64,000 nt of DNA from Telmatactis stephensoni (lineage: Eukaryota; Cnidaria; Anthozoa; Actiniaria; Isophelliidae). The notes below the pieces were generated by a model. That model made no database searches. It was not told the DNA's origin and saw only the letters and a list, made by a program, of their open reading frames with translations. The position numbers and the translations under genes were made by a program. The first letter of the stretch is position 1. Every line of letters begins with the position of its first letter. This document shows positions 22,858-64,000 of the stretch, piece by piece. The DNA lies in contig JALIZF010001676.1 in the NCBI GenBank assembly GCA_029948255.1, positions 437,001 through 501,000 of the forward strand, written 5' to 3'.

Positions 22858-23383
22858 ATGAATGCTGCCTCGGTGAAGATGGCGATCATTTCCTATAAAA
22901 CACACAAAAAATATGACTATTGCTCATACGCAAAAGAATGTAATACTCTCTAAATAGCTTACTGGGTTTTAACAAGAAAAATCTCAATGTTTCTTTGCCA
23001 AAAATTCTGCTCCTGTGGGCCGCCATTTTGTTTGAATTGTCGGCAGATTTTCGTAAGTAATTCGGAAGGTATTCGGAATTAGAGGCAAGTTAAAAAAAAA
23101 TTAAAATCGATCTTTAACCTTTTTTATTTGGAGTCTTCTCCAAAATAACGATTATCTAAGTAAATATTTTGTGAAAATTTGCGTTTTCAAGATAAAAAGT
23201 TGATGTTTTAAATTTTTGAAAGATGTTGTAGATTGAGCCCACTATGTGTTTCCGCTGATGCGATTATGCGCATTGTACATATTTACAGTAACGCGGTATG
23301 ATAATCCATCGAAGCATTGATCAAGCGTGACTGGCGTTAGGGTGTGAGCTTTGTATCTAGCACTTTCATCTTATTCAACCAAG
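22858..23383. promoter_or_regulatory. Shared head-to-head promoter region of XPNPEP3 and ADAM10
   Basis: About 525 bases separate the proposed XPNPEP3 start (22857, minus) from the ADAM10 start (23384, plus). The interval holds GGCCGCCATTTTG at 23018-23030, which matches the YY1-type motif, and a TATGCGCATTG word near 23267 resembling an NRF1-type palindrome. A TTTATAG-type acceptor just upstream of the XPNPEP3 start exon suggests a 5' UTR intron. Bidirectional use is inferred from geometry. Confidence 0.45.
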
Positions 23384-40166: not shown

Positions 40167-40668
40167 GTTGGATTCGAGGGAGCGCGACACAACGAGAGAC
40201 TGCTAAGGTCCCGGATGATAGAACGGAAGTGGTACCAAATGCGTCAGCGGTTGATCAGTTGATACGAACGTCAGCTTGGACTATTTTTAGCACACTTTCA
40301 TCACATTTATTCTATAATCTAATGTTAACAAATTATTTATTCTAATGATACAAAGTTTATTTGGATTCGCTTTATATTTTACAAAAGGAAAATTCAAAAT
40401 ACCCAAAGCTTCCGTATGGTTTGTTAATAAAAATGTTTAACTTAGTTGGAATTCTTTACAGAAGAATTCTTACAATAAATTAGATTTATTATGAATTGTG
40501 TTTTTCTTCTAAAAATTGTAACTTTTTAGCTGATATAAACATTTTTATTCCTCACAATTTTACTGGAAAACTTTAAACTTCCGGTTAGTTGCTTTATGGG
40601 TATTTGAGTGACGCATTGCAGTCTGGGAAATATTGCGTCACTTCCTTCAAAACGCACGAGAAATAATC
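40167..40668. promoter_or_regulatory. Shared promoter region of clathrin light chain and DNAJC19
   Basis: About 500 bases lie between the two divergent start codons. ETS-type core words occur near each end: ACGGAAGTG near 40223 on the clathrin side and ACTTCCGGTT near 40567 on the DNAJC19 side. A TGACGCATT/ATTGCGTCA inverted pair lies at about 40609-40640. Bidirectional activity is inferred. Confidence 0.45.
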
Positions 40669-42133
40669 ATGGTGAGTGAGGCTTCCAAACTTTGTCTTTT
40701 TTGTGCCTTTTTTGTCGTTAATCTGGATCTATTTTTTCTTAATAGACGTCGCTAATATTAGCTGGGCTTGGAGTAGCTGGAGCTGCAATAGCTGGTAAGA
40801 AAAGTGTCATAATCTTTAGTATTTTGTGATGTAATCTTGACGACCATTTGCCATGCTTCATGTTCGCGTGTGTCAGAGGGGATATAGTAGTTTTGATCTT
40901 TTTGCAGGCCGCTTTGCAGTTCAAGCATTAAAAAGAATCGACGTTAATACTATTCCTAAAGTTATACCAAAAATACCAGTGAGTATTCTACAGTGATGGT
41001 GTTGTACACGTTACAATATTGCAATTAGAAACAGATCATGTGCCTTACAGTGTAAATTTTATTTTTGATATTTTCAGACATTTTCACATTATTATCGTGG
41101 TGGATTTGATCAAAAAATGACAAAACGAGAAGCTGCCCTCATTCTTGGAATAAGGTATTTATGTGACAACTTCATGCCAAATCCCCTGGGTACCCCCCCC
41201 CCCCCCCCTCCCCTCTGTTCTACTTCTGGAACTTTGTGATGTGCAACTGTTGCAGGAGTGGATACACTGTGTAAGTGCTGATGCTTAACTTCAGAATATC
41301 GGCCACTTTTTTGAATAATAATAGAAGCTTTTGTATTCTTGCATTGTTTTCAAAGAGTTCTGCTCTAGAATACAATGGTGGACAAGTATTCTGAAGTTAC
41401 TCCAAGTGCTGATTGCATACATGACAAGAAAATTTTAACAATGTTTCCAGGAAAATTGTTCAGTGTTGCATATATTAAAATCCAACAAATGTGAAAGTTT
41501 AACCATTTGTAGGGTAGGTGTACATTGTACAGTAATTACATCCTCAATAATCCTGGGGTATTTTTCTGTCTCATTTCTCACTCCCAGGAAAGGTACCCCA
41601 TTGATAGAAAAGTATTTTTAATTAGAACTTGTTGTGGAGGTTAATGTTTATTACATATGGCTGGATGGTAATTGCTGTAACAGCACATTTATTTAATCTT
41701 CTGCAATTATTCATCTCAAAATGGCAATGTAACAATTTTATATATTTTGGCATATATAGTCTCTTAAATTCTTTTATCTTATTGTTTCAGTCCATCAGCC
41801 AATAGAATAAAAATGCGAGAAGCACATAGGAGAATAATGTTAATAAATCACCCAGACAGAGGTATGATTTTTATGTAATAATCAACAAAAATTAACATGT
41901 GAGTTGAGCGATGTATGCACTATTTAGTACTATTTATGTTCCACACTTTTAGTGTCTGAACTCTATTTTTGACTCCAAAGTAGCTTTCATTTATCTTGAC
42001 AATGCAGTGTACACAAGTTAACATATTTAAAAATGCATGATAATATCTCCTTATTCTTCTCTTTTTAGGAGGATCCCCTTACTTGGCCGCAAAGATAAAT
42101 GAAGCTAAAGATTTATTGGAAAGCTCAAAATAA
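40669..42133 (+). CDS. DNAJC19: Mitochondrial import inner membrane translocase subunit TIM14
   Basis: Six exons: 40669-40671 (ATG only), 40746-40794, 40908-40978, 41078-41154, 41791-41861, 42069-42133, giving about 111 residues (human 116). The protein has one N-terminal membrane segment ([20 protein letters not shown]), the linker [20 protein letters not shown], which is nearly identical to vertebrate TIM14, and a J domain with the His-Pro-Asp motif in [20 protein letters not shown]. In the PAM motor it stimulates mtHsp70 ATPase at the TIM23 channel on the matrix side. All introns are GT-AG and phases match. The start is set by the single-codon exon, whose ATG is followed at once by GTGAGT. 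Confidence 0.95.
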
Positions 42134-43777
42134 CTGGAAATTGTAATCATAATTTTATTGTACATATGTATTCTAAAACTTTGATAATAGTTCTGAATTA
42201 ATTTAGAGTATGCAGGGTTGTAAGATGAAGTGATTTGAGATGACTTTTTGTAAGTGAAATTATTTCTAAATCACTTCAAAATAAAAGCCATCTTTTACAA
42301 AACTACTGAAAATTTCACAAGATTCCTCAAAATTCAGCATTTTCCTACATGGCTTTTTCATAGCAAGAATTTGGGCTTCCTGTAGTATCCAAAATTGATC
42401 TAAAAATGTCCAATTTGGATTACGTATGATGAAAGGTACTGATCATCTGCTAGTTAACACACTCTTGTTTCACTGGGACACTGTAAAGCATTTCTAAGGA
42501 TATCCTCCAGAGTGAAAAGTGCCTGTCGTGAGATAACTTTACCATGAATTTCTTGAATACAACTATTGTGCTCTTATTGCACTAATGCCTGATAAAATTG
42601 CAGATATACATGAAATATTGTGAAATTTCCACTTAAAGTTATGAAAAAATCAAAGTTACCATTCTGATAATTCCTGCCTGACAACTAAATCATATCACAT
42701 CCAAATCAAAATTAATTTCTGAGGTCATAGCCTGTATACACTGTCTACTACCACTGTCTACTCTCACATTCAGGAAGATACTGGAAAGTGTGAGGAAGAT
42801 GCATTGCTGCAATTAGTTAAGTAGACACCTCAATGATTGTGGAGTTTGTAAAACTGCAACACCTAGACATACATTGTAGCAGTAGAATATTAAGTCCTGC
42901 ATCACTGGAAAATACTGTATACAAGCTTATAGCAGCTGGAGCATATACAAGACAAAGTAAGCTTTCTTGGTCTTGTGTGGTAGAGATAAAATCGTTTCAG
43001 CATATATCTAGATCTATCTAGATTATCACTGCCTTGAACTTGGCTGCATTCTATCTCATCTATCAAATCCCTGCTTGTCTTTTGCAGGTCTTAGGGAAAT
43101 TTATATTGTTAATTGTTGTATATTGAATTTTAAAACCACCAAGACATCAATTGTGTGTGATTGTGTTTTTATTGTGAACCATGAATCTACCTAGAGTATA
43201 TTGTGCCCTTTAACTGTTACAATGTATAGACACCAGGATTTTATTTCATTTTTTTTTTCGTGTTGTCGTTGTTGTATCCTGAGCTGTTATAGTTCATACG
43301 TGTTGTTGTCACTGTTGTTGTTGTTGTATCCTGAGCTTTAATGTGTGTTCATAATTGTTGTTGTCATTGTTGTTGTTGTATCCTGAGCTGTAATATGTTC
43401 ATAACTGTTGTTGTTGTAGTTGTCGTTGAAATATTTATTACCGTTGTTGAAGTGTTTAGTACTGTGTATGCAAAGTGATCATTGTTCAGTAGAGGTGTTT
43501 AATAGCACTGGTGCATGCAATATTTAGTTGAGCCTAATTCTAATCAACTACTCAAACTACACATTCCAATTTTAACAACAGCAATCAAAATTTTTTTAAG
43601 TAATTCCATTGTTGAAATAAAGTACTATGCGCTGCAATGTTTCGTTCCTAATTCTAAAGCCACTGCCCATAATACACAGTGCAGTCCAGTTTGCCATCAG
43701 TCATCTAAAAAATCTTTGCAGCTTCCTTTAGAGAATAGTTATATAAGCATGAAATAACCAATAAATTCCTTTCTAGG
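42134..43777. other. Region between DNAJC19 and the MOV10 fusion gene (convergent 3' ends)
   Basis: About 1.6 kb of AT-rich sequence. It should contain both 3' UTRs. No gene is recognised. The only repeat of note is the GTT-rich tandem block at about 43255-43440. Confidence 0.5.
43255..43440. repeat. Tandem repeat of a GTTGTTGTATCCTGAGCT unit
   Basis: A unit of about 60 bases containing GTTGTTGTATCCTGAGCTG, a TAAT/TATAG stretch and GTTCATA is present about three times with indels in the GTT run. Confidence 0.8.
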
Positions 43778-46700
43778 CTACTCGTGTCTTGTCCATTCTG
43801 GACTCTCTTGCAACTCTTTCATGCTGATTTCGGATTCCTCTTCCATCATATCTGCTTCAAAAAGAAGCGGAAAAGGCAAAAAGTATGTTATTCATTAAAA
43901 CAAACAAAATCAATGCGAGACTTCATTGTTCTATACTCTAATAGATGCATAGATGACGTCAAAATGTGGCAAAAGCAAAGACGTAGGACACGAGATTTCA
44001 ACCAATAACGTCACGTGTAAGATTCACATCTAGACAAATCAGAGGGCGCGTAGTATGCCATTTATATGTATTATATAAAGATAAATTATATTCTGTTTTG
44101 TCACCCTCTTGTAGTTGTGAATGTAAAAAAGTGCAATGTTATTTAAAATCGAGTTTTCAAATCCGGGCTTTTGGAAAATGATTTGTTTTGGAATCGGGAC
44201 AAAAGTATTTTTAAATACTTTTTTGTTTGTTTTTTTTGTTTTGTTTTAAAAAACAAATCCCATTCCCTAGAAGATGAAATTGCGAATTTTAACTATGCAA
44301 TTTTCAGAGAATTTTTAATTTGGTTATAGAAATTGTCAATGCGTTCTAAAAGTCAGGGAGTTTTGGATTGGAAAAGTCTCGGGGAAATTCCATAATCCTT
44401 AACCGCTTAATTTCGTTGACTATGGAGTAGAAATTGTTGAGTCTAAGTTTGTGTTCAGTGAAAAGCCAGTGAAAAATGGGATTTGTTCAAGTAAAAGTCC
44501 GGGAATTTTTTATAAATGAAACGTTGCAAGCTTGAAAAAGTTTTTGGCTCTTTCTTGGTGTTGCAAGGCACGTGAGGCATGAAAACAATAAGAACTTTGA
44601 ACGAAACAATAGCCTGCAATACAAAGAACTCGAACTCGGAAAACAATACATCTTGCAACATTAAGAAAGACCCAAGTTTTCTTACTTTGTTCTGGAATTA
44701 GCCTCAGTTTTCTCATCAGCGATACAATGTCCATTCCACTTTCCCTTGCTGGCACCTTGATAAATCCATCGTTGTCACAACAGAACATCAAAAAACTGCA
44801 AACAATATCAGTTGTTTCACAAAGTTATTAATATTAATACATTTTGAATCTCTAACCTACTATTTGCTGGTATAGGGCCTTTGTATTCTTCTAGCAGCTC
44901 AACGCTCTTTCACAACTACTTTGGCAAGCGTAAAAGGATAGAAGAAAGGCTGGAGTACATATGTCTCACCTGTTCCAGTTGTCATCTTTAGCTAGCATTT
45001 CCACATTGCCAATCAAGATAAGCAGGGCCTGTGCGCGCGTAACTGCAACGTTGAATCTCTGCAATACAGTACAGTACAGTTAGATACATTCAACCTCATC
45101 AATTAGTTATGGAGCGCGTGTATTGATCGATAAAGAGGTTATGGCAGTCCGGTGAAAAGTGCGTGGAGGTTCAGGTTTACTATTTGATACCGAGTCAAAA
45201 TTACTGTATAGTGCAGATGTTTTGCCTAAGTATTCATATGTTGGCATACAATTAATGCAAAAACAGAAACATTTCATTTGAGACCGCATAATTCAGGATA
45301 AAGATTTTTGCAAGAACCTTCATATACACACTTACTTACCCCAGTATTATTTTTAAATAATACGATTAAAAAAACGTATTAGCGCCATTTTAGCCTTTTT
45401 AGCTGGTGCTATAGGGTGAGGAAAGAAGGGAAAGCAAAGGAAAGCAGTCAGTCATATGACTAACATCGTTGATTGGGAGTCGTGTATTTTCTGCCGTGAG
45501 AAAACTGGAAATGGTTAACTGAGCCATATTTTTGCGTACCTTTGGATTATCAAGAAATCCCAAGCCAAACTCCTTATCCATGTCCAAATACTCTCGTTTG
45601 GTACTGCGGACTGTGGAGACGATAATGATACGTCTTTCTTGGCCTTGGAATTCCTCCACACTACCAACCTTGATGTTTTTGTAGTTCTTCTTTTCCAACA
45701 TAGTTTGAATTTTTTGCACCTGTACATTTAAAATAAACTTGGAACTTTAGTGTGCCGGATATATCTGGTATTAGTCTGCCGAAGGTGCATGCAGCGGGCG
45801 AGTGCGTCATACAGTTTACTCAAATAGAGAAATGAAAGCGTCTTGCAAGAAATGACCAATACCATTCAGTGAGAAAGTCTTCCACATGAAAAACATTTTG
45901 AGAAATTTTCAGCACTTCGACGAAATATCTATAACTTTTTCCGCAACATTGCGTGCAATACATGCAGAAAAATTAAGTTGCTGATGTAGAGAAGCTAAGA
46001 GAATTCTTGTGAGACCAAAACTAGACTTTTGTATGATTTATCACTGGGGGCCTTATTGGCCTCGTTTTATAATTAATACATTTAAAGTGCAAGCGACAGG
46101 ACGCCGATTTCTATAAAATGTATTTCTTTAATATCTAGAAAAAATGTCCTGAAAATTTACTCATATTTGAAAAAATATTTAACACGTTTTTTTGCGTTCA
46201 AAAACGCGCACTTTGCAGTATTTTTTGTCCCGGAGGTCTGGGACCGAGTTAACATTTCGTGTGACGTCATATGGTGTACCGACAATCGAAAAACACTGTA
46301 GTTTTCCTTCCTTGTTTGGTAATATGTCAACTTTAAACCCAGAATTTTCTTGTGATTCGGACGATTCTTTCGAGTCCGAGTCTTCGCAAAGCTCCAGATC
46401 TAACACTGAACCAGAATCGTTTCATTCTGGGGAAGAAATTACGGTAGACATTGACGATGAACCGTACCAAGATGAACCACTGGCAAGTGATAGTGATCAA
46501 AGCCACAGCAGCGACGAAGAAGCTGATCAAGATGGGCTAACGCCGACTGTTTTAGAGGCTAGATACGAACGTCGTATAACAGTTCAAGAATGGTGAGTAA
46601 TATAGTCGTCAATGATCATGCATGTGCCTGAGATACTTACAGAACATCTAGTAACGGCGGCCGATGCATGTAGTACACGAGCAACAAGAAACTCTTCTGA

Positions 46701-47899
46701 TTCACTGTTCTTACTTCGAATCCAGGAGAAATAACTTTTTATAACAGATATTTCAAATTTTAAGAACAGTATTTTAGAGTAAAAAAAGCTTAAAACAAAT
46801 CTATTCCAAAACTTATGGCCGTATAAATCATGAAGTTTTCATTCACTCCTTCGTAGGTGCAAATGTCAACAATGTCAACATGAAAAACTAGAAAACGCTA
46901 TTGAATATCGCTGCTGTCACGAGATCACGAATGCAATTGGAAAACTTTTATTTGATGGATCAATAGACACTATCAGCTGTATAACAGAACATGAAGATTA
47001 TCCTGCATTGATCAATAAAACAGTACTTTTACAAGTTGCTCCTTTGTTGAGATACCGTCGACAGACCGGATCAAGCGAAAACGAGTATGTATTTTTATAT
47101 ACATAACTTTTACTTTAGCATTCAACGATCTTACACTATTTCCCTTTATGTTGTGACAGGTTTGTTCGAGCTATTGCCTATCGTTGGTTGATAAGATGGA
47201 TTTGTGGTTTCATGGGCTGGGACAATAGAAGACCCTTACCAGCTTGTGTTTATCACAGCATAAGAACAAAGTATCATTCTTATAATACTAAAGGTTATGC
47301 TGCTGCTCAGCCAGAATAAAAATTTATTGTGAATAGTGACATTTTTATCCATCATTCAAATTTCTATTGCACTTAATAACTTCTCAGTGTATATAGCAAG
47401 AAAAATCAAGATAACCAACTTATACTGACATTTGTATGTGTTACATTCTAAAATACAATCTTAAAATATTCCATGTGCAAACATATTATCATGGATTAAT
47501 CATGTGATATTTGTAAATACTTTATTTAGGGGGGCAATTATGAACACCACTTTACTAAACCCACTTCCAAACATTACTTGGGGTGTTAATGATTAATTGC
47601 ACTCAACCATTACTATTTTTTAGATTTCTTTTTTGTTTTGTTTTTTTCTTTTTTGCGGCTGCTTCTTTATTGCTTGATTTCTTCTTTTTTGCTGCTGCTT
47701 CTTTTTTCCTAGATTTCTTCTTTTTTGCTGCTTCTTCAGCCTGTTGCATTTTAGTCTGTTTGCTCACTGCAATTATAATACCAAAATTGACATGAGAGGC
47801 TAAATTCATTTTTTTGTAATGTTCAACTTTGTTATAAAAGAGGAACTCAATCCTCATTATAATCTATACCCCATGCTGTTAGAGCAGGCCACATCACTG

Positions 47900-47972
<73 letters not shown>

Positions 47973-50900
47973 CCTTTAGTTTAATGTCCTTATCTGAGAA
48001 GACGAGAAAGTTATATATTTTACCTGCTGGGTATAGTTGGGTAGTAGTCTCTTTTCTCTTTTCATGGACTTTTACTGCCTCCAATTTACTAACCCTGTCT
48101 TGAAACTGGGATGTTACTGACTTTGGGGCTTTGGCAGAGTATTTTTCAAATATCTTTATCCTGTGGTGCTTTGTCAGGGCAAATAGTTGCTCTCTCATTT
48201 CTGAGACATAACCTGCAGGACATATTTTCACACCGAAATATATTATGCTGTGTTGTCATATAGATGTCAACTATTTTCTTTTGACTTTTTTTCTTTTCTT
48301 TTTTTCTGTTCTTTTTTCTCAATTTCAATAAAAGATACTTGAAGTCATTCTGTACAATAATTTATTATTTACTTACCATAAGATGGGGCAACCTTGATAT
48401 CACGAACAACTTCGTCACCTACTTTATACTTCGGGTAAGACACTTTTACATATGTTACACCAGTTTTGGAAACCCGTGGTTCTCTCTGGAGGTTTTCATT
48501 GAAATGGAGGCTTGCCAAAGCATGCCTAGATAACAGCAAAAAGCAATAAACAGTAAATAAATGTTTTACCTCACAACATGTGAAAGAAAATATGGGTGAG
48601 AAAAAACTGGCATTATTTAATGTTTGAAATGGGGTCAATATTAAAATATTATTTTATCTTTATAGCAGCAGCTTTTTAACTGCAATTGATTTGTTTAATA
48701 TACAATGTAACAAGGCATTTTGAAGTAAGGGACAGGTCAATAATTGGAGGCTTATCAGTGCTTGGTATTTTGATGCTCTGTGTGTTGCTAAGATGTCAAA
48801 TAGTGGCAGTTTTGAAACATAGGGAAATTGTTGTATAAAGAAAACAGTACCGCCAGCGAGTTTCTATAACTAATCAGTATTCTCTATATAGAGCATACCA
48901 ATCCTTCAAATAAAGCAAATTGAAAGACATTATTAGTATGCTGTATATAGATATTACTAATTAGTTATAGAAACTCACTGACTGCGTACTTGTTTTCTTT
49001 ACCCCCACAATTTATCTCTGTGCCTCTAAGCCCTAACCACTGGACATCTTTAGTTACTCTATGGAAAATAGAGCACCTAAATACTAAGCGCTGATTGGGC
49101 AAGTGAGTGTGATCATATTCTAAGAAAAAAAACATTATTAACCTTCTGTTTGGAGCTTTTTAATATTAGCTTGATTCAGTGACAGGATCATTAATTTTTT
49201 TACAATTCTTTTGACCTGATTTTATGCAAAAAAACGTTTGGCCCTCCCCTTAAGACTTGCACAATTCTTTCTGGCCTTCCCTTTTAGCCTGTATGAAAAA
49301 TAATGACCCTCCCCCCCCCCATTTGCACCAGCCCTCCCCCTCCTGCTAATTATTATTGACCTGTCCCTAAGAATATCAGAATGAGAAAACTCAATTCAAT
49401 GAAATACCTGCAAAATGTCCCTAACCACGAAAAACAAATCATTTTGGGATGCCAGTGGTTTAATGTGGCATGGAACCCTTCCAAACAACTTGTCTGGGCA
49501 TCCGAAGAAAGCTTTCTAATGTCGTTGATAAGTACTTTCTTGGTTAGTAGACTGTTGAGCTTCTGGTATGCCACTGTTCCTACAAAATTAACAGAAAGGC
49601 CATACGTTATTGATAAGAAACAATTATTATGTTTACAATCTACAGTCTTATAATCCTTCAATTTGTGAGAAGTTTTATCCCCCTCATCCCTCTCCAAAAA
49701 GACAAAAATTAATCAACCCCTCCCCATTCATACACACACATCAACAAATTCATTGCACATGTTGAAACAATTCACATTCAATAAATAACAACCATCCTCT
49801 TACCAATTTTGATCCACTTTCTCCGTTTCAGAACACCATGGTTACATTTCTTGTATAAAGGATCAGGATGTTTATTATGTTTGTTTGCAACATGACGGAG
49901 AAATGATGACCATTTTGCCACTATTAGTGAACCAAATCCAGTTTTGGTGGAAGTTGCACACCAGTAGAGATGTTTGCGAATACCTTTAATCCATGAGGCA
50001 ATGATTTCACACCCTTTTTCTTTACTTGCCTTCAGTAGCTTTTTGGTGATAGACCTTGCTATATGCCAAATATCGTAGTAATGTGTAGTGCCAAGACATG
50101 AAGTGCGGATCCACTTTGCTATTCCTCTATGTCGGTCTGAGATGAATACAGGAACCTTTAAACCAATCTTTTTGAAAAATGCAAAACTTCTCTTGCAACC
50201 CTCCAACTCTGTTTGTTGGCTACCCCCAGTTTCATTTGACTAATAAATAGAAGAAAAACTAGTTTTTAGCAAATGAGATAGGTATAGCCAATCCTATTTA
50301 CATAAGAGAGATTCAACTATTATAGTTAAAATAATGATGGGAATATAGCTGCATATTAATTAAAATTTATGCTTTATCTATAACTAATGATTTCATTTCT
50401 TTTGTTACTCTGTTTCACAGTTCTAAAACATTTAATGAAAAACTGACTGAAATCACATAAAAACAAACAGAAAGACAAACAAACAAACAGACAGACATAA
50501 TATGTAATTTCACCTAATACCTGGACTATTTCAAAATGAACAATCTTCATCACTGATGTGCACATCATGGTATAGGCACCGTACTTGGCAGAATGCCCCA
50601 TGGAATCAAATCTGCCATCTCCAGACCATACAGTTTCTTTCATCCTTTTCAATGATGTCACTAGCTTGTCTCGGTAGTTCTCCCAATGGTGAAGGACTAA
50701 TGGGAATAAATAATTTCTTTGGTGTCTGAAGTATGCTCTGGCTGAGTGAACACAGAGACCCATGTGGCGGAATATCAGTAGTGTTTTGCTTATAGAGGCT
50801 CCAGCCATCAATATGCCAAAACTGAGTAAAATATTTCCAAATGGTATCCGTCCACCTAACAGAGGCTGGGATTTCCATTCATACTCTTGGTGACACTTGA

Positions 50901-53900
50901 GACAATGTTGTGTTACAGACACCATTGTCCCCATTGTCTTTGCAGTGGCAGTTGGGTTGGCTTCCTTGCATTTAAAGCAAAACATGGTGAATAGGCTGAC
51001 AAGCTTCCAGTAAAACACAATAAACTTTGGTTGATCATACTCTGGTAGATCTGGATTTACTCTGAAAACAGAAAAAAAAAACATTGTAAAAAATGCTAAA
51101 TTTTTGATGCACAATATTGTTTCAGGGTTTGCAAAAAAGATCCAGGGTTGGGCTGCTGGGACTACAGTATAACTCAATGACTTGTTACTATGAATACATT
51201 GTGTTGATTCAAGACATATCTGAGGACCATAATACAAATGTACCAGAGACTTTATCATCAACAACTAGCGTAAGTTACAATGTGGGATGGACATTAACAC
51301 AAAGGATTGATAACTGATGTTTCGAGTGTAACTTATTCATATTCACTTCTGAATCACTATAATTCAATCTGTACTTGTAATACCTTATTTCATTGTATGG
51401 GGTTTCATCATCTTCACTGTTGCTCTCAAACTCAGTACTTTCTTCCATTGATGCATATGTCCACTCTGAGTCATCATTTTCTTCCTCACATTCCCCTTCA
51501 CTTTCTGTCTCAAGGGAGGCTTCTGCTTCTATATGATTTTCTTCTGCTTGCTCTTCATCAGTCTCTACCTCTGTTGATTCTCCATGTTCAACAACTCTCT
51601 ATAAAGGACATAAAAGTGACATTATACCAGCTAATGTAAGTTTATATACGATGATGAATTATAGTTCAAGTTCAAGCTACAGTACGCAGTACACAAGCAC
51701 TTTTTCACCGTCAAGGAAGAACAATAATTGTTAATAATTATAATCAGGGAAAATGTGCTCGTGTAGATGAGGCATTATTCATTAAGTTACATATATGATA
51801 CATGATTGTTGATTCATTTGAAGGCATTTATAGATGGTTAATGTTCATGAAAATGACAAACAAAATGTAAAAATAATCACATGGAATATAATATTAGTTA
51901 AACTACATGCAATTTTAAAGTTGATAAACTCTAATTACATGTATAAAGTTTACTTACACTTTCAAGTTCTTTAATTCGATTTTTCAACTCCGACATCTTT
52001 CGGGTAAGTCTAGTATTTGCCTTTCGTAGAGTTTGGCACTTTTTTGTTTTTATACTGCATTTCTTGCAGCTGATTTTTTCCGTAACTTGTTTAGATGACG
52101 ATTGCGTTAAGCTTCCATGATCATGACAGGATAAACAGGATGTTGATAGCGGTTCTTCAGGCGGCATCGAATTGATAACTGCTGAAACTTCTGTTTCTTT
52201 TCGTGGCCTCTTGCTTTTCGATGAAATTTCGTCTTTCTTAGAAAGAGCATCTCGTTTTAACTATAATAAATTCAAATAATTTAGCTCAGTACAATGTTTG
52301 GAGTTCGTGAAGGTTCGATCAGTTCAGCTGGGTTCATTCAAATAGCTTACCTGTCGTTTGTATCTCGCTGTTAATTCCGGGGATCTGCTTGGTAATTTTA
52401 CTGTATCTCGAGTAGGGATGGCTCCTTTAATTAGCTTTCTTCTCGTGTTTTCCGTCCCCATAGCTTCCATAATCGAACGTTCGCGAGTGAAGTCGCTGTC
52501 CTCAAAGTGAGCAGAACACAAACACGCATGTTTGTTGACTGGCTCACTGAAATCATCTCTATGCCTCTGTACAAAACGAACCCACTTCGATCTTATTTCG
52601 GGATCAGAAGGAAACTGGTGCATGGTTATGCCTTTTGTGTAGGAATTGTTTGCACAGCTCGTTTTATTTGGTGCACCAGCAACACATCTTTTGCCTCCAC
52701 GTTTCTTTGTGGATTCCGCCATGATGGCCGATCGATGTACACCATGTGACGTCACTTACTGTGTTGCGTGACTATTTGGCCGAGCGATAAGTGGGACAGA
52801 TTTTTAGCGAAAGGGCGGTATTTTGAATGCGAAAAAATGATATTACTTTTCTATTCAATTAGGCAATGGTGGATTGTCTTGTCAACCCTCCTCTACCAGG
52901 AGAAGAGTCTTATGAAAGTTTTACAAAGGTAGGCATTGCCGGTGTTATTAACCTTCATTTTCACACCAATTCCTTTTTTCTCTTAGGCACAATACCAGTA
53001 TTTAATATGACATTCTGCTCAAGACCTAGTGTAATGCCTTTTATTACATAGATATCAATGAAATACCAGGATTTCTCCTGTTTCTAAAACTTCGTACGCA
53101 GTGAAGATATCATTTTTATCCTTCACATGTGAAGATATCACCGTTGTCATGACTACCCTTGTATCAACCAATCACAAATGGCCTTAAGATTCTTTCCTGA
53201 TCCTGGATATTTCATTGATATTTATAAAATAAACAGAACATTACATGGCTGCTTGGAGATACGAATTTTATCTTCTCGTGTTGAATATCTCTCACTCGTT
53301 CACTGCGCTCACTCGTGAGAGATATCATCAACACTCGAAGATAAAATCTGTATATCCACGCGCCCATGTAATATCCTCTATATATCCGCTTCGCCCTCAC
53401 TTTCTTTCTATGGAGATATGATACCAATCATCTCTGGTCTGATCATCTTCATTCTTCTGCTTCTCACATTATCATCAAGAAGTTTCTTCAAATACTTCTC
53501 GATGGTCTCTACTTCCGCCACGTTGAAGAATGAAGGGCTGCGCGCCTCTCTCTCATCGGTGCCGTACACTGGGTGAACAATAATGGGAAAGTGTCGGTTT
53601 GGCAACTCTTCCCAACCAAGCATGATGTTTCGGAAATCACCAGCACATTCATTGAGCTCATCCTCGTAGAACAACTTCTTTGGGATTTCGATGATGGATT
53701 TGTGTGATCGGTAGTTGTTGACTAGCTTGGTCATGATTCTGTTGTCGTATTCATCACTCAAAATTGAACGTTGGTACACATCGCATGTGCTCATGAGACG
53801 CTCTAGTAGTGACATCCCTATAATTGTATTTGGTATAGAAAGATACGGAATAAGTTATTTTTGATTTTATATCAATGGAATTGAAAGTAAAGGTTTCTAT

Positions 53901-56900
53901 CCTTAAAGCAAGAGAATTGTTAACTATAGTTAATTGCTTCCTCCAAATTAAACTAGGGTGCATGCTTTTTGACGAATTAATTACCACCTTACCGAGTCCA
54001 TATTTCTGAGCAATAGGAGACCTTAAGATGGGTCCTAATTGCTTAGGATCCCCTGCAAGCACCAATTGTCCAGTTGCAGGATTTAGAAGGTCCGCAACTG
54101 GAATGACACATTCGGGTTCCACTGCATGTCCTGCTTCATCAATGAAGATGTGAGTGAAATGATCTTTACCAATCATCGCAGAAACAAGTCTATAAAATTT
54201 ATCAGAATAAAGAGTTGGGTTTAGTCTTTTTTATTCGAACGTTAACCGTCGTCCTATTGCAAATAAAGAAAAGTTCAAAGTTATAGAAAAGTTCAGCGCA
54301 AGCTAAGAAGCTCGAGGAAGACCTTCAGTATGTTGGCTGTCTCATTTTGCGGTCGTATTATTTAGAGCGACTTGCACGAGAGTGGAATTTACCACTTGGT
54401 AGGTAAAAGGTCTATAGGGACGTTTAGTCCAAGTGATTCCATCCACCAAGGCTACATATTTCGGCACTCAGTTTCGATTGACCAGGGGCAGAAATCGGCA
54501 AGGTTTTATGGAACAAATCACCAAAAAGGACCTCGAACAATGCCATGTTCTAGAATACTTAGCTGTACAACAATGCATATTCCCCACTGCATGTTGGTTA
54601 CTGGTTAACAAGCTGTACGTAGTTACTCGAAATAGCGCTGAATGATATTAGACCCTCTGGAATATGCGTAATGAATTAACTTTTACCTTCCCGCAGTGAC
54701 AAGAGTGGTCACTATCACGCGGTATTGTCCTTTAAGTTCTTCAACGGACGGATAGAACACTTCCTTGGTGATAGCATCGGTGAAGTTTATAACTTTATTA
54801 TCCTGAAAAAGCGAAATTTATGTCATAGACCCTTTGCAGAATACTGCTAATCATATGCAGATACACCTCTTGCTGCACTTTGGCGCAGCTAAACAATGGC
54901 ATGCTTAGGTGGTTCTTTTGTTTTACTAAGCCAAAGCGAGGCGAAGGATGTACGTATCTACATATGATTAGCATACTATGATTATGCAAAGGGTCTGTAC
55001 CTTTTGACAAGATCCTAAGAAATTATTGTACACAAAATATATTAACTCTGTATGCGCGCGACAGTGTAATTAGCTTGCGCGCGGTGCACATGTGCATATA
55101 GATTGATCCAATTAAGGCCGCACTGTTGTTTTTGCAGCTGTTATATTACTGTAGCAGTTTAAAAGAAATTAAATCTACTTCCATGATTACGATAGTAACA
55201 CTAGCTCTTTTCATACGGCTATTGACTAGCTTCGATAGCAAAACTACAATAGTACCGGCCACAGCGGATGGGGCAAGTGAAATCTGTGGCCTCCAAGGAA
55301 CTTCCTGCAGGAAAATATTCAATTTTTTTCCAGAACAATATTCTTGACATTGTCATACCTTAAGAACTTGTGGAACGAACTCCCAGGGCCTTGATGTTGC
55401 GTACATTCTTAGAATCTTTCGCTTCTCAATATGCGGCAATAGTCTCTCTGCTATCAGGTCTGCGGCACTGTTTTCTGGTGCACATGCTAAAATGACTGCG
55501 CCAGGTTGGTGTCTGTATACCTGCACGGAAAAAATGCGCAAGTTGAGGAAGAACATTCTTCGTGTATAAAGGTTGCGTCTTGATTGTGATCCTTTTATGA
55601 TTGATGCTCGGTAATGGTTTTGGGTTCAACAACAACAAAACTAGATAATGGCTTCAAATAAATTACATGCAAATGTAAACTAGTCAAACCTGTTTGATGG
55701 CTTCCACAAATGTGACGGTTTTTCCTGTTCCGGGCGGACCAAAGATTAGATAAGGCGCAGGACGAGAGGTTCCCATGGCAATGTTTTGAACGGCAGTTTT
55801 TTGCTCATCGTTTAAATTAGGATCGAAGTACGTCCTGTCATGGAAATGAACATATCCTTTAGTCCACTTTTTTGTTTGTTTTCAAAACCGAGACGCCGCT
55901 TAACATTACTTTGCATCATCTGAGCCGTCAGGTCACATTGCACTGTATTTTGAGTTGTGAAGATATGTGATCCTCGAGCTTACATCCACAGTTTTAATAT
56001 AGTTAGTTTGCCGTATGATCAAGTAAAGAAATTATAACTTACCAAGAGGTGAAATTGTTGCGGCCCCGTCCGCAGATTGTTTCGTGAGTAGGAAAAAGGA
56101 CGGGTTCCAAATCAGGCTTCTTCACAGCGCGCTCGTGTGAGCGATGCTGCATCTGGATGGACATACGGTTGAAGGTGAACTGTATGTCAAACTTCTTGTT
56201 TCTGATAAAAGGCATGCTGCGGACAAAATGAGATCACCTTAATCTTGGGTATCACCATCATCATCATCATCATCATCATTGATATTATTAGAAATATAAC
56301 CAAGTTCATCCTAGCTTTTGTGATTTCACCGTGCTGTGTCTCAGCTGTATCACGCATCAAGGCAGCCATCTTGTCAGTTGAATTTCAGAATAGATTTCTC
56401 ACTTTATAGCATAATTTATATATTTTTTATAGCACGTCAATCGCTTCTGTTCCTCACGATTCTTCTCACTATGCAATATAGTTCATTATAATTAAATTTA
56501 TTATTACTGTACATACTTTTCACCAAAACCAAGTTTGACATTCAGCATTTCCACCTTGTGTACGATTCCTTCAAAACGACGAGAGCGGACTCCTTGTTCA
56601 TAGGCGAATATACGATCACCACGGAGAACTGATGGTCGATTTTCCGCCAACCCTGGGACCTTTGATAGAAATTTTGCAATTAATAGTGCGATTAACATAA
56701 AAAATGAATAAATAAATTTGTAGGGCTAATCATCCACAAGCAAATACACTGCTAGGATGCAACTCAACGTGGTCGGATTGGAGGCCTGTAGGTGGTGCAC
56801 AATGTCGTCACCATACAACCCATGTCTGACCATGAAGCACAGTTTAGATCGACACAATGCTGGTTTTATTGGAAAACCAGAGTAGCTGAAAGGAAACCGG

Positions 56901-59900
56901 AGTACCGGTACCCGGACAAAAAATCCTCGTGGCAACTCACATATGATCCAGCGCCCGAGCAGGGACTCCGCGAACCCGGAGCACAGCAGTGAGAAGTTCA
57001 CTAAGTTCGTACTTTCGAAGTTCACGACGAACTTCGCTGATGAACTAGCTTCCAACGTGCTAGAATCATGACCAATTTACACTAAAAATGAGATGCATCA
57101 CATAAAGCAAGAGATAGCTCTGACTAAAGTAATACGAAATTTGATCATGAAATAGACTCTTCCATGCCGGTAGCTCTTACGAATTTCCGAATGTGCGCGG
57201 AAAGTAGGTTCGAGTTTCTCTAATGAAGTTCGCGGTGAACAAAGTACGCCGGATTTGAACTTCGGAACCGTCTTGCAAAAAGTATGTAATATTTGACAAA
57301 TAGATTCCATTTTGCCGTGCGCAGACGACGAGGCGAAGTCGAGTGGCTTGACTGTTGTTCTCATCACATTTTGACGTCTTCTGTGGATCATCATTTAGAG
57401 TACAGACGCACGGAAAAATAGAGTGGATTTCGTATGACTTTGAAAAACTACGGCATGGCACGGCCACGGTACGGAACCTCGCCTGCTGATTTATTCACAA
57501 TTTTTTAAAGAAATCAGCAGGCGAGGTTCCGTGCCGTGGCCGTGCCGTGCCGTGACCGTGCCGTAGTTTTTCAAAGTCATACGAAATCCACTCTAGAATC
57601 TATTTGTTTTACATAGTAGAGCGGTTTTCATATGACTGGGAAACAGTACGGTCACCGCACGGTACGGTTACGGCACAGTTACGGCAGAATTTTCGAATGT
57701 TTTTATAAATTCCGGTACTGACACGGTTACGGTACGGACCGTACCGTTTCCCACTCATGCGAAAACTGCTCTATTTGTGGAAACATTCCAGCCAATCAGA
57801 GCGCGCGTAAGATTCAGTGACGCCAATTGTAAGTACTCTAATCACACATGGTTCTCGATCAATCAGAGCGCGCATAAGATACCAAATATTATATAAATAG
57901 TTGTCTTTTGTATGTGCAATGATAGTATAAAAGTGCACTAAAGTTAGTAATATTTATAATCACAATGGTCACCTTAAGGATGAGGAGGTCTCCATCTTTT
58001 GTGAAGGTCTCGCCTTCCATGTCATAGTTTCTGATGTCTCTCTCCATTTGAAGCTCCTCTACTTGAACCAGAATGCTGAACTTCTCCTTGTAGTTGGAAA
58101 ATGTCAGCGGGTTTTTAAGTTTTATGCTAACAAAAAATACAATTTAGTAAGAAATTGCTCTCGGTTAACGGTAACGTCATGGCGGCCATCTTAAATGAGC
58201 TTCGACAAACTATTTCTCATTTCATGATCAGGGCTGTTGTTCTCCTGTTTATGAAGCCGACAACAGAGACAAACACATCAAATGTACTTGTTACTTCGTT
58301 ACCTTAAAACGGAAGAAAGACTCTTTGAACCTTTCACAGAAGCCCTTACTGAGGGGAGAACGAAATATTCGTCCATGCGTTCCATTCCTAGACCATTGCG
58401 TCTCAACCTGTTTTTATCCATGCAATAAAAATTCAGAGTACAGCAAATTAAACTCTCCCAAACTGAATATCGTCCCATAAGACGGACACCTCCCTACGGC
58501 GGACATGTAGTTATTCCAAAAATTATTAGTTTACTGTAAATGGGCGATTGCTTTGATGTGACCATGGCAATTCAAGATAAGGATGTGGGGGCACTTCATA
58601 GCTCGTTGCATAGCAACAATGAAGCCGATGTTAGATAATGATTATCGCTATGATTAGTACGGTATTCTTGGATTGCAAGAATTCCAAGTCAGAGAGTGAA
58701 TTGAACAGGCAAAAGACATGGCAGCTATGTTGGTTGTTATTGTTTTGTCAAGACAACCAACATGGCTGCCGTATCGTTTGTTCATGCAGTTCACTCTGGG
58801 AATGATTGCAATTGAAGAATTTCATCATCATTATCATTAGCTTGTGAAAAGTCTCTTTGAAGGGAGGGGAGTGTTCACAGGCAGCAAATCTGTTCATCAC
58901 ATCATGGTTTATCAATGAAAACGATATGACTCAGTGATCGATTTCTTATACATACGGTGGTAACCGTCTTCCAGGCTCCGTTCTGATATCTGATGGGATC
59001 AGCTGGCGAGGAGCGGGACCAATGTAATCTGACTTCTTCTTTAAATCATCATAAACATCGCTAACGGATCGAACGCACAGGAAACGAAGAATATGGAAGT
59101 CGTTATTTTCATCGTCCTCATCCTCTCGGAATCTAAGAACGGCAGGCACATAATTGAAGCCATACTCTTCTCTTGGTTTGCAGCCAATAGAAAATCTCAC
59201 TGGAGTTCCACCTTATGAAGAATTTATATAGATTATATATGTACCTAAAAAGGTACGGACAACAAGGGATGCAGAAATTGAATCTGTGATCATGATCATT
59301 ATTGACTTAAGTTTATGCGCATTTATTGGGCTTTTGGCCAACTAGAAACCTAACTGTTCAAAGTCATTCGGACTTGGTAAATTGATCACCTAGCATTAAA
59401 AACGATTCGCGTTAGCTCTTGCCCTGACATACCTCTTGCAAGCATACGTTTGTGAAACGGAATCTCTCTTATCTCGCTGTAATCAAACAAAGACGTACTC
59501 CAAAGCAGTGTGATATCTGTAAGGTATATTACTTCGCATGAAGTCCCCGTGTTCTTGACAGTAAGAACGATGTCTTTCTTGCTTCCAAGCTCGACGATGA
59601 TCTCGATGACGCCAGCAGCATCGCCATGGGGGTTTGACGTCACTACAACTCCTTCTTTGTCATAGATCAAATCATGCCTACATGGAAACAAAGAGGACAA
59701 ATGTATCAACGAACAACATCTGGACATGCAGACCTTTGTGGAAATTGATTTGCGACTACATGTTATTATGGTAATAGTGGTTCTAGTAAATGCCCGTTCG
59801 GATGGGGCAACCTTCTGCAAATACAGCTGTGCGCAACATTGTTGCACCATGGGCATGTCCACCCCTGCAACAGTACAATTCAGCGCAGTGTTGCGCGAAT

Positions 59901-62900
59901 GATCACTTACTTCTCAAGGGTTTTGCGAATCTCACGAAAAATCTTCTGCTGTCGATGTCTAATGCTTGTCTTGTGCTTTTCAAGCGTATAACTGTTATGC
60001 ATAGGCTTTTTGCAAGTATTGCAAACGAAACTGTGCATCAGAGATTCCTGTTCCCAGTCATCGTCATCATCAGAGTCAAACATAGCTAATGCGGCTTCTT
60101 CTCCTCCTCCAAAAATAATCTTCCCTTGAACTTGCTGGCAGAGGTTCAGGTGGAAGCATAATGCATCAAGAACATCGCTAAATGTAACGCCTCCGGTTAC
60201 ATACTCGACGCTAAATTTACACTCATAAATTTCCCTCAACTCTTTTATTTTCATTGTTTCTTTAAGCTGCTGTTGTTCGAGGTAAGTATCAAATCCCTTG
60301 GCTATTCCTATCTTCTGTGTTCTATCGCTGGACCCGCTTGCACCAAATTTAGACCGCTTATACGGAAAAACCATTCTGTAAGAACAAAACGGAGACAGAG
60401 CCCCGTAAGTAAATATAAGTACAAAGCATGCTGATGTGCTATGTTAGGTTAGGCGAGCCTGCTTACGCCTCGTGCTTCTCTTTTTACTGCTATCTTGTCT
60501 TTTCGCAGTTCCAAAGTGCTTTACAAATTCAGCGTAGTACGTTGTAGCCTACCGCGTAGCAGGCGTTCCCGTGGGGCAAGGAATCCGGACACAGGTGCGC
60601 AGGCTAAGTACGTCACGTTAAGAGTTGTTGCTGCGAGCATACCGAACAGCGACACAAATCTCCATGGTATTCCTGTGTTGAGATTAGTTTAGTCCATATA
60701 TCGGAAGTGCATGGGGATACCTACAGTCGATCGATATGTTTGCAGCCCCAGTAGGCCGCAGATGATACCCAACCGACGTTATCGGCTGACATATTGACTT
60801 AAGCTAAGTACGTATATGATCCAATAGAAAATCTAAATAATTAAATAATGCTTAGCAAATTGACGATTAAAAAATTACTCATTATACAATGTACCTTTTC
60901 ATGAAACCTTCAGGTGCATTATAATCTTTTACTCGTGGATGAATCACTTTTTTTACATCGTGCATTTCTTCTTTAGTATTTTTTTCCGCGGTACGGGTAA
61001 CAATATCTTCAGCAATATCTTTCTGCTTATAAGGCAACAATTCCTCAAAGAAGCACCGTGCATGCAGATATTCGTCTTCATTCACTGTTACCAAGAGCTC
61101 AACTTTTTCACCGCGATTATTGCCCATTTCCTCAGTAACAAAAAGTTTTTCAAGATCACTTCTCAGCTCACCAGACTTGTACCTTTAGAGGCAAATCAGA
61201 AACACTCATAATCAGTTCACATACATAACGTAATTTATTTGTTCATTTATTTGTTCGTTTTCAGTTGTGCGTTTGAGCCCCAAAAATAATGCCCACAAAG
61301 ATAGCTAGACAGATATACTTTTTAATCATTAAGAATATTACCACTAACATCAACTCTGTTGTTGCGTGTCTTGTGATGATCTAAACTCACCTCTTCCAGA
61401 AATCTTCAAGTGCATCAAGATCCATTACTCGTAGCTGTATTTCTATTGATCCCTCGCGTACATTTTCTGCGTGTATTCTGGCATTATGGATAATAGTATC
61501 TTGAATCGTAGTTAATAATGATGTAGGGTCCCCTCGATGATTCTCACAGACGACTCTGAAATCTCCGTTGGGCACACGAACTACAATGCCTTAAAACAAC
61601 AATTTATCAGGCTCACTTCTACTGGGGAAGACAAGACAAGGGGGGATAGTTGGGACACTAATGAAAAATATCTGCTTATGCGTGCATATTACGGCGTATT
61701 ACTCTGTCGTACCCAGAGCACCTCGGCCGTCGTTCCTCCCCTAACGGTGGCTCTTATCAAGAAATGTGTTAGCTTTTTGCGTGTTCTGGTCATTTGTGTA
61801 TACATAAAATTTCTCTTGCATACAAGACAAAGATATTGCATTATATATGAAGACGTTATGTGAATACTGGCCCTAAGTTTCAATTAAGAATTGACCGTTT
61901 TGAAATTTTGTGAAACCATTGTTGAAGGCAAGCGTATAAAAAGCAACATTTGCATAAGTTTACAAAAATCACAAAGACGTGACTACGAGCATGCGCAGAC
62001 GTTCTACACTATTGTCGATAGTGGGATAAAAATTCTTGGGTGAAAACCCCTAATTTGAAAGCTTGCAGTTATGAATCATATAGATCAGTTTGCATTTTTC
62101 ACTACCGACCGACCACAAAATTAGCAATTTTAATTTCTGGACAAGCAATTGATTCGTGTAGAGGAGGTAGAGGAGTTTAGTACCTGTATATGGTCCCATA
62201 TGTACATTCAAGAAGAAACTGCATACCGGTATACCGTAGTTAGCCGTAAAAATGCTCATCAAAGGTACATTAACTAACAGTGCCCTTAAATACTATTATA
62301 AGAAGACTCGATCGATAGAGTATACTATAAAAAGTACAATTGGGTGTTCTCAGCAACCGAGGAAGTGTACTTTAGATATAAAATTGGGCCAAGAGCAAAA
62401 CCTTGCAGTACTCAACAATCTAGACCGAGATCTAGAGGGACAGATAAAGAGCCATCTATTTAAAGCAAACTTCAACACACCGGTTTTAGGGAAGTAGGCC
62501 ACTTCCAGCTTCAAGCAACAGCCGGTTGACGATTTGACAGATTGCAGATAGCAACACTCAGGACTGACTGAGAAGTATGTTAGCGGAAAATGGATCGAGG
62601 CTGCTGCATAGGACTTTAACTGGGAACACTTTACTTGATATGAAATATTTGATAGTTCATCAACAGATATGGGAGAAAATAAATGTTGTTTTGCATTGAG
62701 ACATAGTTGAATCAAGGTAGGAAAATGAAAATGATCCAGAAAAGAAAATTGATTTTATATATTAATGATTTTGTCCTTGAAAAAGTGAACGAGACAAGTG
62801 CTGTAAAAAGTAAAGTCCAGCTTTTTACTTGAAGCATATATACCTAACTCCATTATAAGAGCGTTAGAATGGACAGCTATTTTCAAGTCTTTTCGCTTGA

Positions 62901-64000
62901 AATTCGATATTTAATAGCTTGACTAAACTCATAAACTTATATTTTCCTCGAGATTCCTTTATAACTGTTTATAACTTTGATGACGTCTGGAATTTATATG
63001 AATATTGACTTTGGTCTCTGATTGTATTATATTTAAATTTATCATTCTGGAAGAATTCCTCGAGGTCACGAAATCGTTGAGCAGTACTTTTATCATTCTT
63101 ATCTTCAACATGAAAATTGAGTTTTCGATATGCAAATGAATTTCAAAAGAAAAATACACGCATGCGCAGACAAATTCTCTACATGTTCTGTTTGTTATGA
63201 AACCATATTAGAACACATGCTGATTCGTTTGCGTGTGGCAATCTGAACATGTCTGTAACACACAAAAGTATAAAATAATAAAACCCAAAAAACCCTAAAA
63301 CCGTTTTCTTGGACTCAATGTAGAATATACCACAGGTAATGAAGGATCCTTTTCCATTCATGACAAGTTGTTTTGATTTCTGCAACGATTTCAGTTAAAG
63401 AGTGATATGATCTGCGATGGAAACTATTATCCCCGTGTCTTCTTCAAGAATACAATGACATTCGCTTGGGTTAATCGATCGATCTAAGGTGTACATACCT
63501 GGGAATTGAGAAAAGTAAGCCCTGATATCACCTTGAGTGATGGGACCAGTGAGATTCCTGTTGATCTGTTCTTCCCATTCTTGGATTGAGTCTCTACTAT
63601 ACGTTCCAACTATTCTTAACAAAGCTTCTTTGACTTCCGCCCAATATTTAGTGAACAGTTTTTTAGAAAGTTGTTGCTTGTTGTGGGCATATACTGTATT
63701 ACGATAAAACCTTATTCTCGCTATATCTGCTACCAAAGATTCATCTGTAGCTTTAGGGAGTGTATCCCATCGAGGAGACCACGGCGCCTCGAGCCCACAA
63801 ATATTCCTCAGCAATTTGATAAGTAAAGTTAAATCAAAATTTTCAGACTTGCCACAAGGTGAAATCAACTTCTTCCATTCAACTGAAGACAAAATATTAT
63901 CGTCTTTGAGTTGTTGCAAAAGGCTTCGATTTGACCTTAAAACGTTTTTAAGGTTTGAAGGAGGATGTTTAGAATCGAATAATCCTCTTATAATTTCTGT
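43778..64000 (-). CDS. HEPN / TRADD-N-like / zinc finger / MOV10-type RNA helicase fusion (5' end outside window)
   Basis: Exons: 64000-63499, 61589-61391, 61182-60895, 60375-59911, 59677-59433, 59211-58956, 58126-57973, 56659-56517, 56216-56043, 55834-55690, 55520-55359, 54802-54687, 54189-53993, 53817-53401, 45719-45540, 45058-44970, 44795-44686, 43854-43778. All phases match except for a 2-base lesion in exon 53817-53401. About 1300 residues are seen. N-terminus: DZIP3-type HEPN ([31 protein letters not shown], with R-x5-H). Next: a TRADD-N-like block ([33 protein letters not shown]). Then an acidic run and a C2H2 finger ([19 protein letters not shown]). The helicase has [49 protein letters not shown] and [12 protein letters not shown], ending [11 protein letters not shown]10 is a 5'-3' RNA helicase restricting retroelements and viruses. 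The fusion is inferred from phase continuity. Confidence 0.85.
43925..44065. mobile_element. Decayed MITE, copy B of the 3.8 kb family
   Basis: CTCTAATAGATGCATAGATG followed by ACGTCAAAATGTGG matches the arm of the element at 3780-3938. AATCAGAGGGCGCGTAGTAT matches the flanking CCAATCAGAGCGCGCG word. One arm is missing. It lies in the last intron of the MOV10 fusion gene. Confidence 0.65.
46324..47319 (+). CDS. P2X7 ballast-type cysteine-rich domain protein carried by the transposon
   Basis: Three exons, 46324-46592, 46857-47084 and 47160-47319, join in phase 2 each time (about 218 residues). The N-terminal exon is acidic and Ser-rich ([20 protein letters not shown]), low in order. The second exon opens with [20 protein letters not shown], where C-x-C-x2-C and the following CC resemble the zinc-binding cysteines of the P2X7 C-terminal ballast domain, then [20 protein letters not shown]. 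The third exon has [20 protein letters not shown] and [17 protein letters not shown], matching the AYR...W...LPSC...IR pattern of P2X7. There is no membrane segment and no channel domain, so it is not a P2X receptor. An upstream in-frame Met at 46192 falls inside the terminal repeat and is less likely. A role as accessory or DNA-binding protein of the element is inference. Confidence 0.8.
47603..52722 (-). CDS. THAP-domain DDE transposase, Kolobok superfamily
   Basis: Nine exons: 52722-52351, 52260-51958, 51598-51384, 51061-50521, 50239-49804, 49579-49408, 48525-48377, 48212-48024, 47766-47603. The start [14 protein letters not shown] opens a THAP zinc finger ([52 protein letters not shown]). 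A basic/Cys region and a coiled coil ([20 protein letters not shown]) follow, then an acidic stretch. The catalytic core has [20 protein letters not shown] (likely first Asp), [15 protein letters not shown] with [15 protein letters not shown] (second Asp region) and [18 protein letters not shown] (likely catalytic Glu). The C-terminus is a Lys-rich repeat (EAAAKKKKS). No internal stops or phase breaks were found, so the enzyme may be functional. Assignment to Kolobok rests on THAP plus these motifs and on the TTAA at one end. Confidence 0.82.
47903..47971. repeat. (GA)n microsatellite
   Basis: An almost pure run of about 33 AG units in the last intron of the transposase gene. Confidence 0.95.
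52863..52928 (+). pseudogene. Orphan exon of alanine aminotransferase (GPT-like)
   Basis: A 66-base open segment bounded by an acceptor (TCTATTCAATTAG) and a donor (AAAG then GTAGGC), phase 0 on both sides. It encodes [20 protein letters not shown] plus TK, which lines up over its full length with the [21 protein letters not shown] segment of vertebrate GPT2. I find no other GPT exons nearby. It lies about 20 bases outside the right end of the Kolobok element, in the MOV10 intron, and on the opposite strand to MOV10. Confidence 0.75.
53042..53385. mobile_element. Two adjacent palindromic MITE segments
   Basis: GATATCAATGAAATACCAGG (about 53051) is mirrored by CCTGGATATTTCATTGATAT (about 53202-53221). 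A second palindrome at 53240-53372 pairs TTTTATCTTCTCGTGTTGA with TCAACACTCGAAGATAAAA and has the centre CACTCGTTCACTGCGCTCAC. The right edge is within about 30 bases of the MOV10 splice donor at 53400. Confidence 0.75.
56250..56281. repeat. (CAT)n microsatellite
   Basis: A short CAT run about 35 bases upstream (in transcript sense) of the MOV10 exon that starts at 56216. Confidence 0.9.
57419..57595. mobile_element. Palindromic MITE with TAGAGTGGATTTCGTATGAC ends
   Basis: The left end TAGAGTGGATTTCGTATGAC is mirrored by GTCATACGAAATCCACTCTA. The arms are GGC/ACGG-rich (CGGCACGGCCACGG type) and nearly perfect, around an AATTTTTTAAAG centre. TA at each end suggests a TA target as used by Tc1/mariner-type elements. 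It is inserted into MITE copy C. Confidence 0.82.
57617..57773. mobile_element. Palindromic MITE with TAGAGCGGTTTTCATATGAC ends
   Basis: The left end TAGAGCGGTTTTCATATGAC is mirrored by CATGCGAAAACTGCTCTA, with GGTACGGTTACGG-type arms. It is a sister of the 57419-57595 element, inserted 21 bases further along in the same host MITE. Weaker relatives occur at about 20990-21060 and 35945-36050. Confidence 0.8.
58690..58803. repeat. Imperfect palindrome (MITE-like)
   Basis: GGCAGCTATGTTGGTTGT at the left pairs with ACAACCAACATGGCTGCC at the right. The arms continue outward to CAGAGAGTGAATTGAAC against GTTCACTCTGG. It lies in an intron of the MOV10 fusion gene. Confidence 0.7.

Follow-up and report, generated by a model that had tools for sequence, protein, structure and literature searches.

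We give a little better than even credence to the explanation that, in Telmatactis stephensoni, one haplotype of a MOV10 helicase gene has been joined to a module of HEPN and TRADD-N-like domains through phase-2 exons while its helicase frame has been damaged; we infer from the genomic DNA both that the two MOV10 copies in question are alleles and that the module is spliced to the helicase. The module-bearing copy was analyzed in a window of 64,000 nucleotides (contig C267, positions 437001-501000) of an assembly of 483.5 Mb in 1782 contigs. Coordinates are those of the window, and extended coordinates carry the window numbering past 64000 along C267. A preliminary description of this DNA had proposed a single working protein that unwinds RNA, cuts it and signals. 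The copy as assembled does not encode such a protein, because the helicase is incomplete here and the second copy does not carry the module.

Nineteen exons (A to S) were placed on the minus strand, from 64000 down to 43778. Proposed borders and phases of the first four (A, 64000-63499; B, 61589-61391; C, 61182-60895; D, 60375-59911) were borne out, with GT-AG borders, a single open frame and exon ends in phases 1, 2, 2 and 2, respectively. All 14 introns from A to O have GT-AG borders, and no stop interrupts the frame before a TAG close to the end of exon O. Exon A is cut by the window edge; beyond the edge, a likely ATG for it occurs at extended coordinate 64099, a position much as in the related proteins P0140 and P0141, and the coding sequence therefore probably begins with exon A. 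The HEPN domain that had been recognized in exon A (63499..64000) as DZIP3/hRUL138-type with an R-x5-H site was confirmed by Pfam (HEPN_DZIP3, PF18738: E=2e-37, 128.6 bits vs a curated cut-off of 27). Its RNTVYAH matches the Rx4-6H motif; across 28 aligned sequences, R100 and N101 do not vary and H106 is conserved in at least 90%. An AlphaFold model of the domain was all-helical and confident (pLDDT 88.9); a fold search of the PDB with this model returned nothing described as HEPN among the matches listed. The match of exon A to P0140 (60%) and P0141 runs to an identical exon end (..FPGM), and HEPN exon-level matches in this genome number 108, counting fragments and both haplotypes. Exon A thus belongs to the same family as the animal DZIP3/hRUL138-like HEPN proteins, in which Rx4-6H is mostly conserved and which are expanded in cnidarians (PMC3710099; PMC8260672). 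TPR, Zn-ribbon, RING, ankyrin, CARD, NACHT, DEATH and LRR domains are partners of DZIP3-type HEPN there; unlike in the fusion predicted here, MOV10 is not among the partners that the accessible text of the two papers names (PMC3710099; PMC8260672).

Exons B (61391..61589, with a phase-2 end, ..DFWKR) and C (60895..61182) appear to carry the first and second halves of a TRADD-N-like domain, the latter with a degenerate tail (..GFMKR) and a phase-2 donor. For the TRADD-N module that had been proposed here, the pairwise evidence stood and the profile evidence was borderline: B and C together matched the TRADD-N of the coral HEPN protein P0003 at E=7e-7, spanning the B/C junction, and P0003's own TRADD-N passes the Pfam cut-off, whereas B and C scored just below the cut-off of TRADD-like_N (PF20694: E=6.6e-5, 23.1 bits vs 23.7). 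A Pfam search of two joined paralog exons gave no match, and a PDB sequence search with TRADD-N gave nothing useful. The nearest genomic relatives of exon A (40 of 2386 candidates scored) were two loci on contig C544 (78001-108000 and 206501-236500), with 74% and 72% DNA identity. Each of these loci has a HEPN exon with TRADD-N-like exons after it on the same strand, several of them in tandem. One C544 locus has long TPR-rich open frames further downstream, whose membership in the same gene is only putative; at the other, we take the open reading frames between HEPN and TRADD-N to resemble a retrotransposon. Full-length alignments of exon C were obtained with 8 of 9 paralog exons; the remaining one departs from it in the tail. 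Ten paralog exon ends were inspected, picked as open frames ending in WKR, and every one had AG|GTAAT in phase 2; the AG|GTACAT of exon C is the homologous site.

The helicase begins with exon D (59911..60375), whose ATG (60374-60372) starts at the exon's second base, and continues through exons E to N (53993..59677), which encode Ig-like, helical, beta-barrel and AAA_11 parts including GPPGTGKT and DEAGH. Exon O (53401..53817) follows, and then exons P to S (43778..45719), which encode the C-terminal helicase part with the tail ..PEWTRHE-stop and are open, although in this assembly exon O does not lead into them in frame. Exons D to O matched the MOV-10 Ig-like, helical and beta-barrel and the AAA_11/AAA_12 families (PF21633, PF21635, PF21634, PF13086, PF13087) above their cut-offs, and the MOV-10_N match was weak (E=0.068). 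Over the same exons, identity to five relatives (Stylophora P0021 and P0024, Oculina P0022, Montipora P0023, and P0020; the shorter coral proteins P0025 and P0026 were left out) was 54-59%, and the coral proteins share a similar tail (..PEWxRxE). In contrast to this copy, these five MOV10 proteins (P0020-P0024; 954-1019 aa) have no HEPN or TRADD-N listed, start at the Met equivalent to 60374 in 5/5 cases, and read unbroken through ISPYK(R/K)QVQK.

A complete MOV10 with no terminal stop had been described at this locus, and neither part of that claim holds. Exon O ends in ISP and an in-frame TAG (53410-53408) where the five relatives have ISPYKRQ or ISPYKKQ, and its donor leaves phase 1, whereas exon P requires phase 0; between them, the stop and the mismatch prevent a single frame from running through every helicase motif as far as the C-terminus. 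An alternative phase-0 donor at 53467 could skip the TAG at the cost of the stretch through GIISP, about 20 residues. The DNA of exon O occurs in one other place in the assembly, contig C1036 (86371-86795), which reads ISPYKRQ, as in the relatives, and then a donor (GTGGGG). A lone 2-bp loss as the origin of the stop was rejected, since this comparison shows a patch of approximately 20 to 25 bases replaced; the stop adjoins repeat-like sequence. The following intron holds a 6.95-kb stretch (46087..53038) that is absent from C1036, which has no match of at least 200 bp at the same place. A THAP-domain open reading frame (52327-52755, E=3.4e-16) and two long frames with no Pfam match lie within it (49778-52755, minus strand), and the stretch is likely a polymorphic transposon. 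Loss of the C-terminal motifs abolishes the activity of SF1 helicases, and nonsense-mediated decay typically acts on transcripts in which introns follow so far downstream of a stop. Should the stop in exon O be real, either a HEPN-bearing, truncated RNA binder would be produced or nothing at all, and annotating a "complete" HEPN/MOV10 protein at this locus would be wrong unless RNA and read evidence bore it out.

To compare the two copies, matches of at least 200 bp were collected over 46 kb of window-extended sequence. C1036 was collinear with extended 32029-46086, 53039-60342 and 69508-78508 in eight blocks of 90-98% identity (∼97% length-weighted); a further match, of 329 bp, breaks the order and probably represents a repeat. 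Exons A to C had no match in C1036; extended 60343 to ∼67705, of which 60343..64000 is within the window, and C1036:74516-79776 have no block in common. The only full-length match to the DNA of exons A to C in the assembly was C267 itself (40 of 2386 candidates scored). The copies part inside exon D, at about 60342, where C1036 reads MSLRYGRPRYVAGR-SSDRTQ; this segment is strongly diverged, with the ATG and codons in register. Past this point, counted per 100 columns, identity climbs from 83% to 94% and thereafter lies between 94% and 100%, save for one stretch of 89%. In place of the HEPN and TRADD-N exons, C1036:75793-76653 has an open frame of 287 aa which we take to resemble a LamG-type domain. 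Upstream of exon A, within the block missing from C1036, extended 64773-67266 contains inverted repeats (359 columns at 89% and 236 columns at 83%).

The damage in both copies bears on a reading that overlaps the others and that we regard as somewhat unlikely, in which the locus is non-functional wreckage: a decaying, rearranged copy where recombination set an immune module against MOV10 and no protein is made. The stop and altered donor of exon O beside repeat-like sequence, with a 6.95-kb insertion in the next intron, are consistent with it, as is exon I of C1036 (83509-83653), in which two extra bases in an otherwise identical exon break the frame. That break is either a real mutation or an assembly error and, with the frame broken in both copies, either the MOV10 gene is decaying or the assembly carries small errors. 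Against wreckage, the remaining MOV10 exons are open and exons D to O show 54-59% identity to the five relatives, C267 and C1036 do not differ at all in ten exons (G, H, J, K, L, N, P, Q, R and S), and the R, N and H of the HEPN site are all present.

Whether the module and the helicase form one transcription unit depends on the 519-bp interval between exons C and D (60376..60894), an intron if the fusion is real. Judged from DNA, the balance tilts towards exon C being spliced to exon D, given that this genome contains a family of phase-2 exons to which exon C is homologous. The tandem C544 exons each combine the last part of one domain with the first part of the following one, and most such sites must therefore be spliced. 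Exon D is the next exon downstream for the donor of exon C; its acceptor, when left out of training, scored second best of 18. The donor of exon C ranked lower, with 5 of the 17 other donors scoring below it. An earlier statement that only the exon C donor and exon D acceptor stand out in the interval was rejected: both had sat in the training set, and with them left out, two other donors in the interval scored as well as that of exon C. Neither AATAAA nor ATTAAA occurs there, although the variants AGTAAA (60488) and ACTAAA (60693) do; this absence was rejected as strong support for splicing, since 239 of 655 windows of the same size also had neither signal. Between the acceptor and the ATG, the copies (60374 region vs C1036:79745) differ in length by 6 bases, which keeps the reading frame, and both are open in the phase-2 frame; this hints weakly at translation of the sequence that precedes the exon D ATG.

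The same interval can be read as the border of two adjacent genes with their own promoters, a HEPN/TRADD-N gene and a standard MOV10 starting at 60374, with the phase match of C and D a matter of chance (approximately 1 in 3); this we consider unlikely. The start shared with all five aligned relatives favors it, as does the presence in C1036 of MOV10 without the module. Because two equally good donors lie in the interval, a separate 5' untranslated exon of MOV10 is possible. Read past its donor, exon C reaches a stop after only three codons, and in 10/10 inspected paralog ends the codon after WKR is TAA, so that those sites can also be read as protein ends (KR-TAA when unspliced) and exon C as a terminal exon is possible too. 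Weighing against two genes, the half domains of the tandem paralog exons make sense only if spliced at the homologous site, C and D are just 519 bp apart with neither canonical polyadenylation signal (the two variants do occur, and 239 of 655 windows have neither signal as well), and fusions of TRADD-N to Mov10 have been reported (PMC8195603). No homologue spanning the C/D junction was found: none of 18 module-type protein matches lists MOV10 domains as well, and none of the 120 MOV10 matches listed, of 206, lists HEPN or TRADD-N. A further protein search returned 108 HEPN proteins under a length limit of approximately 180 to 580 aa, at which a MOV10 fusion could not be revealed. The in-frame splice to MOV10 put forward in the preliminary description is thus supported by frames, phases and the homology of exon C to phase-2 exons, and is weakened by the conserved start at 60374 and the lack of a spanning homologue.

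Two other MOV10-like loci are also represented by contig pairs, C90/C994 (aligned and collinear) and C3/C398, and HEPN and TRADD-N queries at C90, C994 and C3 (30 kb each) gave no match at E≤1e-3. Such pairing suggests that the assembly keeps both haplotypes, and C267 and C1036 are therefore most simply, and on their sequences probably, alleles of one locus. A segmental duplication, which would make the presence or absence of the module a difference between two loci, is improbable given eight collinear blocks of such identity across 46 kb and the pairing of the other MOV10-like loci, among which the aligned pair is collinear.

Fusions of this class were already known, contrary to the suggestion that the architecture was undescribed. 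In cnidarians and brachiopods, DEDD2-clade TRADD-N domains have been found joined to HEPN, Mov10 and further RNA proteins; fusions to TTC28-like TPR also occur in this clade, and close species differ greatly (PMC8195603, eLife 2021). The accessible text of that study does not state that HEPN, TRADD-N and Mov10 occur in one protein, whereas here all three fall in one predicted frame; and whereas its comparisons are across species, the difference here is between two copies in one genome, with a broken helicase frame. What is new is the occurrence of module-bearing and module-free MOV10 copies in one genome. Literature searches, which were not aimed at precisely this and returned top matches with few subscription journals, found no title dealing with such a difference between haplotypes; searches for Mov10 in coral or Nematostella found nothing useful, nor did a search of NCBIfam.

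Under the favored explanation, in which one MOV10 haplotype has gained the module, the phase-2 donor of exon C would reach the phase-2-compatible acceptor of the first MOV10 coding exon and create a HEPN/TRADD-N/MOV10 frame, while the probable other haplotype, C1036, would keep a MOV10 with its own start and no module. From what is known of the families, the MOV10 part may bind viral or retroelement RNA, TRADD-N may self-associate or recruit death-adaptor proteins, and a HEPN dimer may cut RNA. Since the polypeptide as assembled would end before the last helicase motifs, the outcome could be an RNA-binding, helicase-dead HEPN sensor; alternatively, the transcript could be removed by nonsense-mediated decay, or the alternative in-frame donor could bring back the tail for the loss of those 20 or so residues. 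Taken further, and tentatively, the locus may represent a gene-fusion polymorphism within one animal: one MOV10 haplotype with spliced HEPN/TRADD-N and the other without, a breakpoint in the first coding exon, capture enabled by the phase 2 common to the TRADD-N exons and the MOV10 start exon, and a helicase that, catalytically dead, may sense RNA on behalf of a HEPN effector. If the two copies do coexist at one MOV10 locus, a fusion would have been seen while still segregating, with phase-2 exons as its likely route, which makes it testable how marine invertebrates diversify RNA-directed immunity.

Other genes were recognized in the remainder of the window. An exon of the Bcl-2 family (31681-32319, plus strand, E=5.9e-23) places an apoptosis gene approximately 11 kb from the end of MOV10. 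A clathrin light chain exon lies at 37396-37710 (minus strand, E=1.5e-9), and an open frame at 39924-40202 (minus strand), with no Pfam match, resembles the N-terminus of the same protein. A Reprolysin/ADAM-type metalloprotease exon (E=3.2e-20) and two M24 peptidase exons were found at 23348-24547 (plus strand) and 14726-15631 (minus strand), and a rhodopsin-family G protein-coupled receptor (7tm_1, E=9.1e-33) at 3-752 (minus strand).
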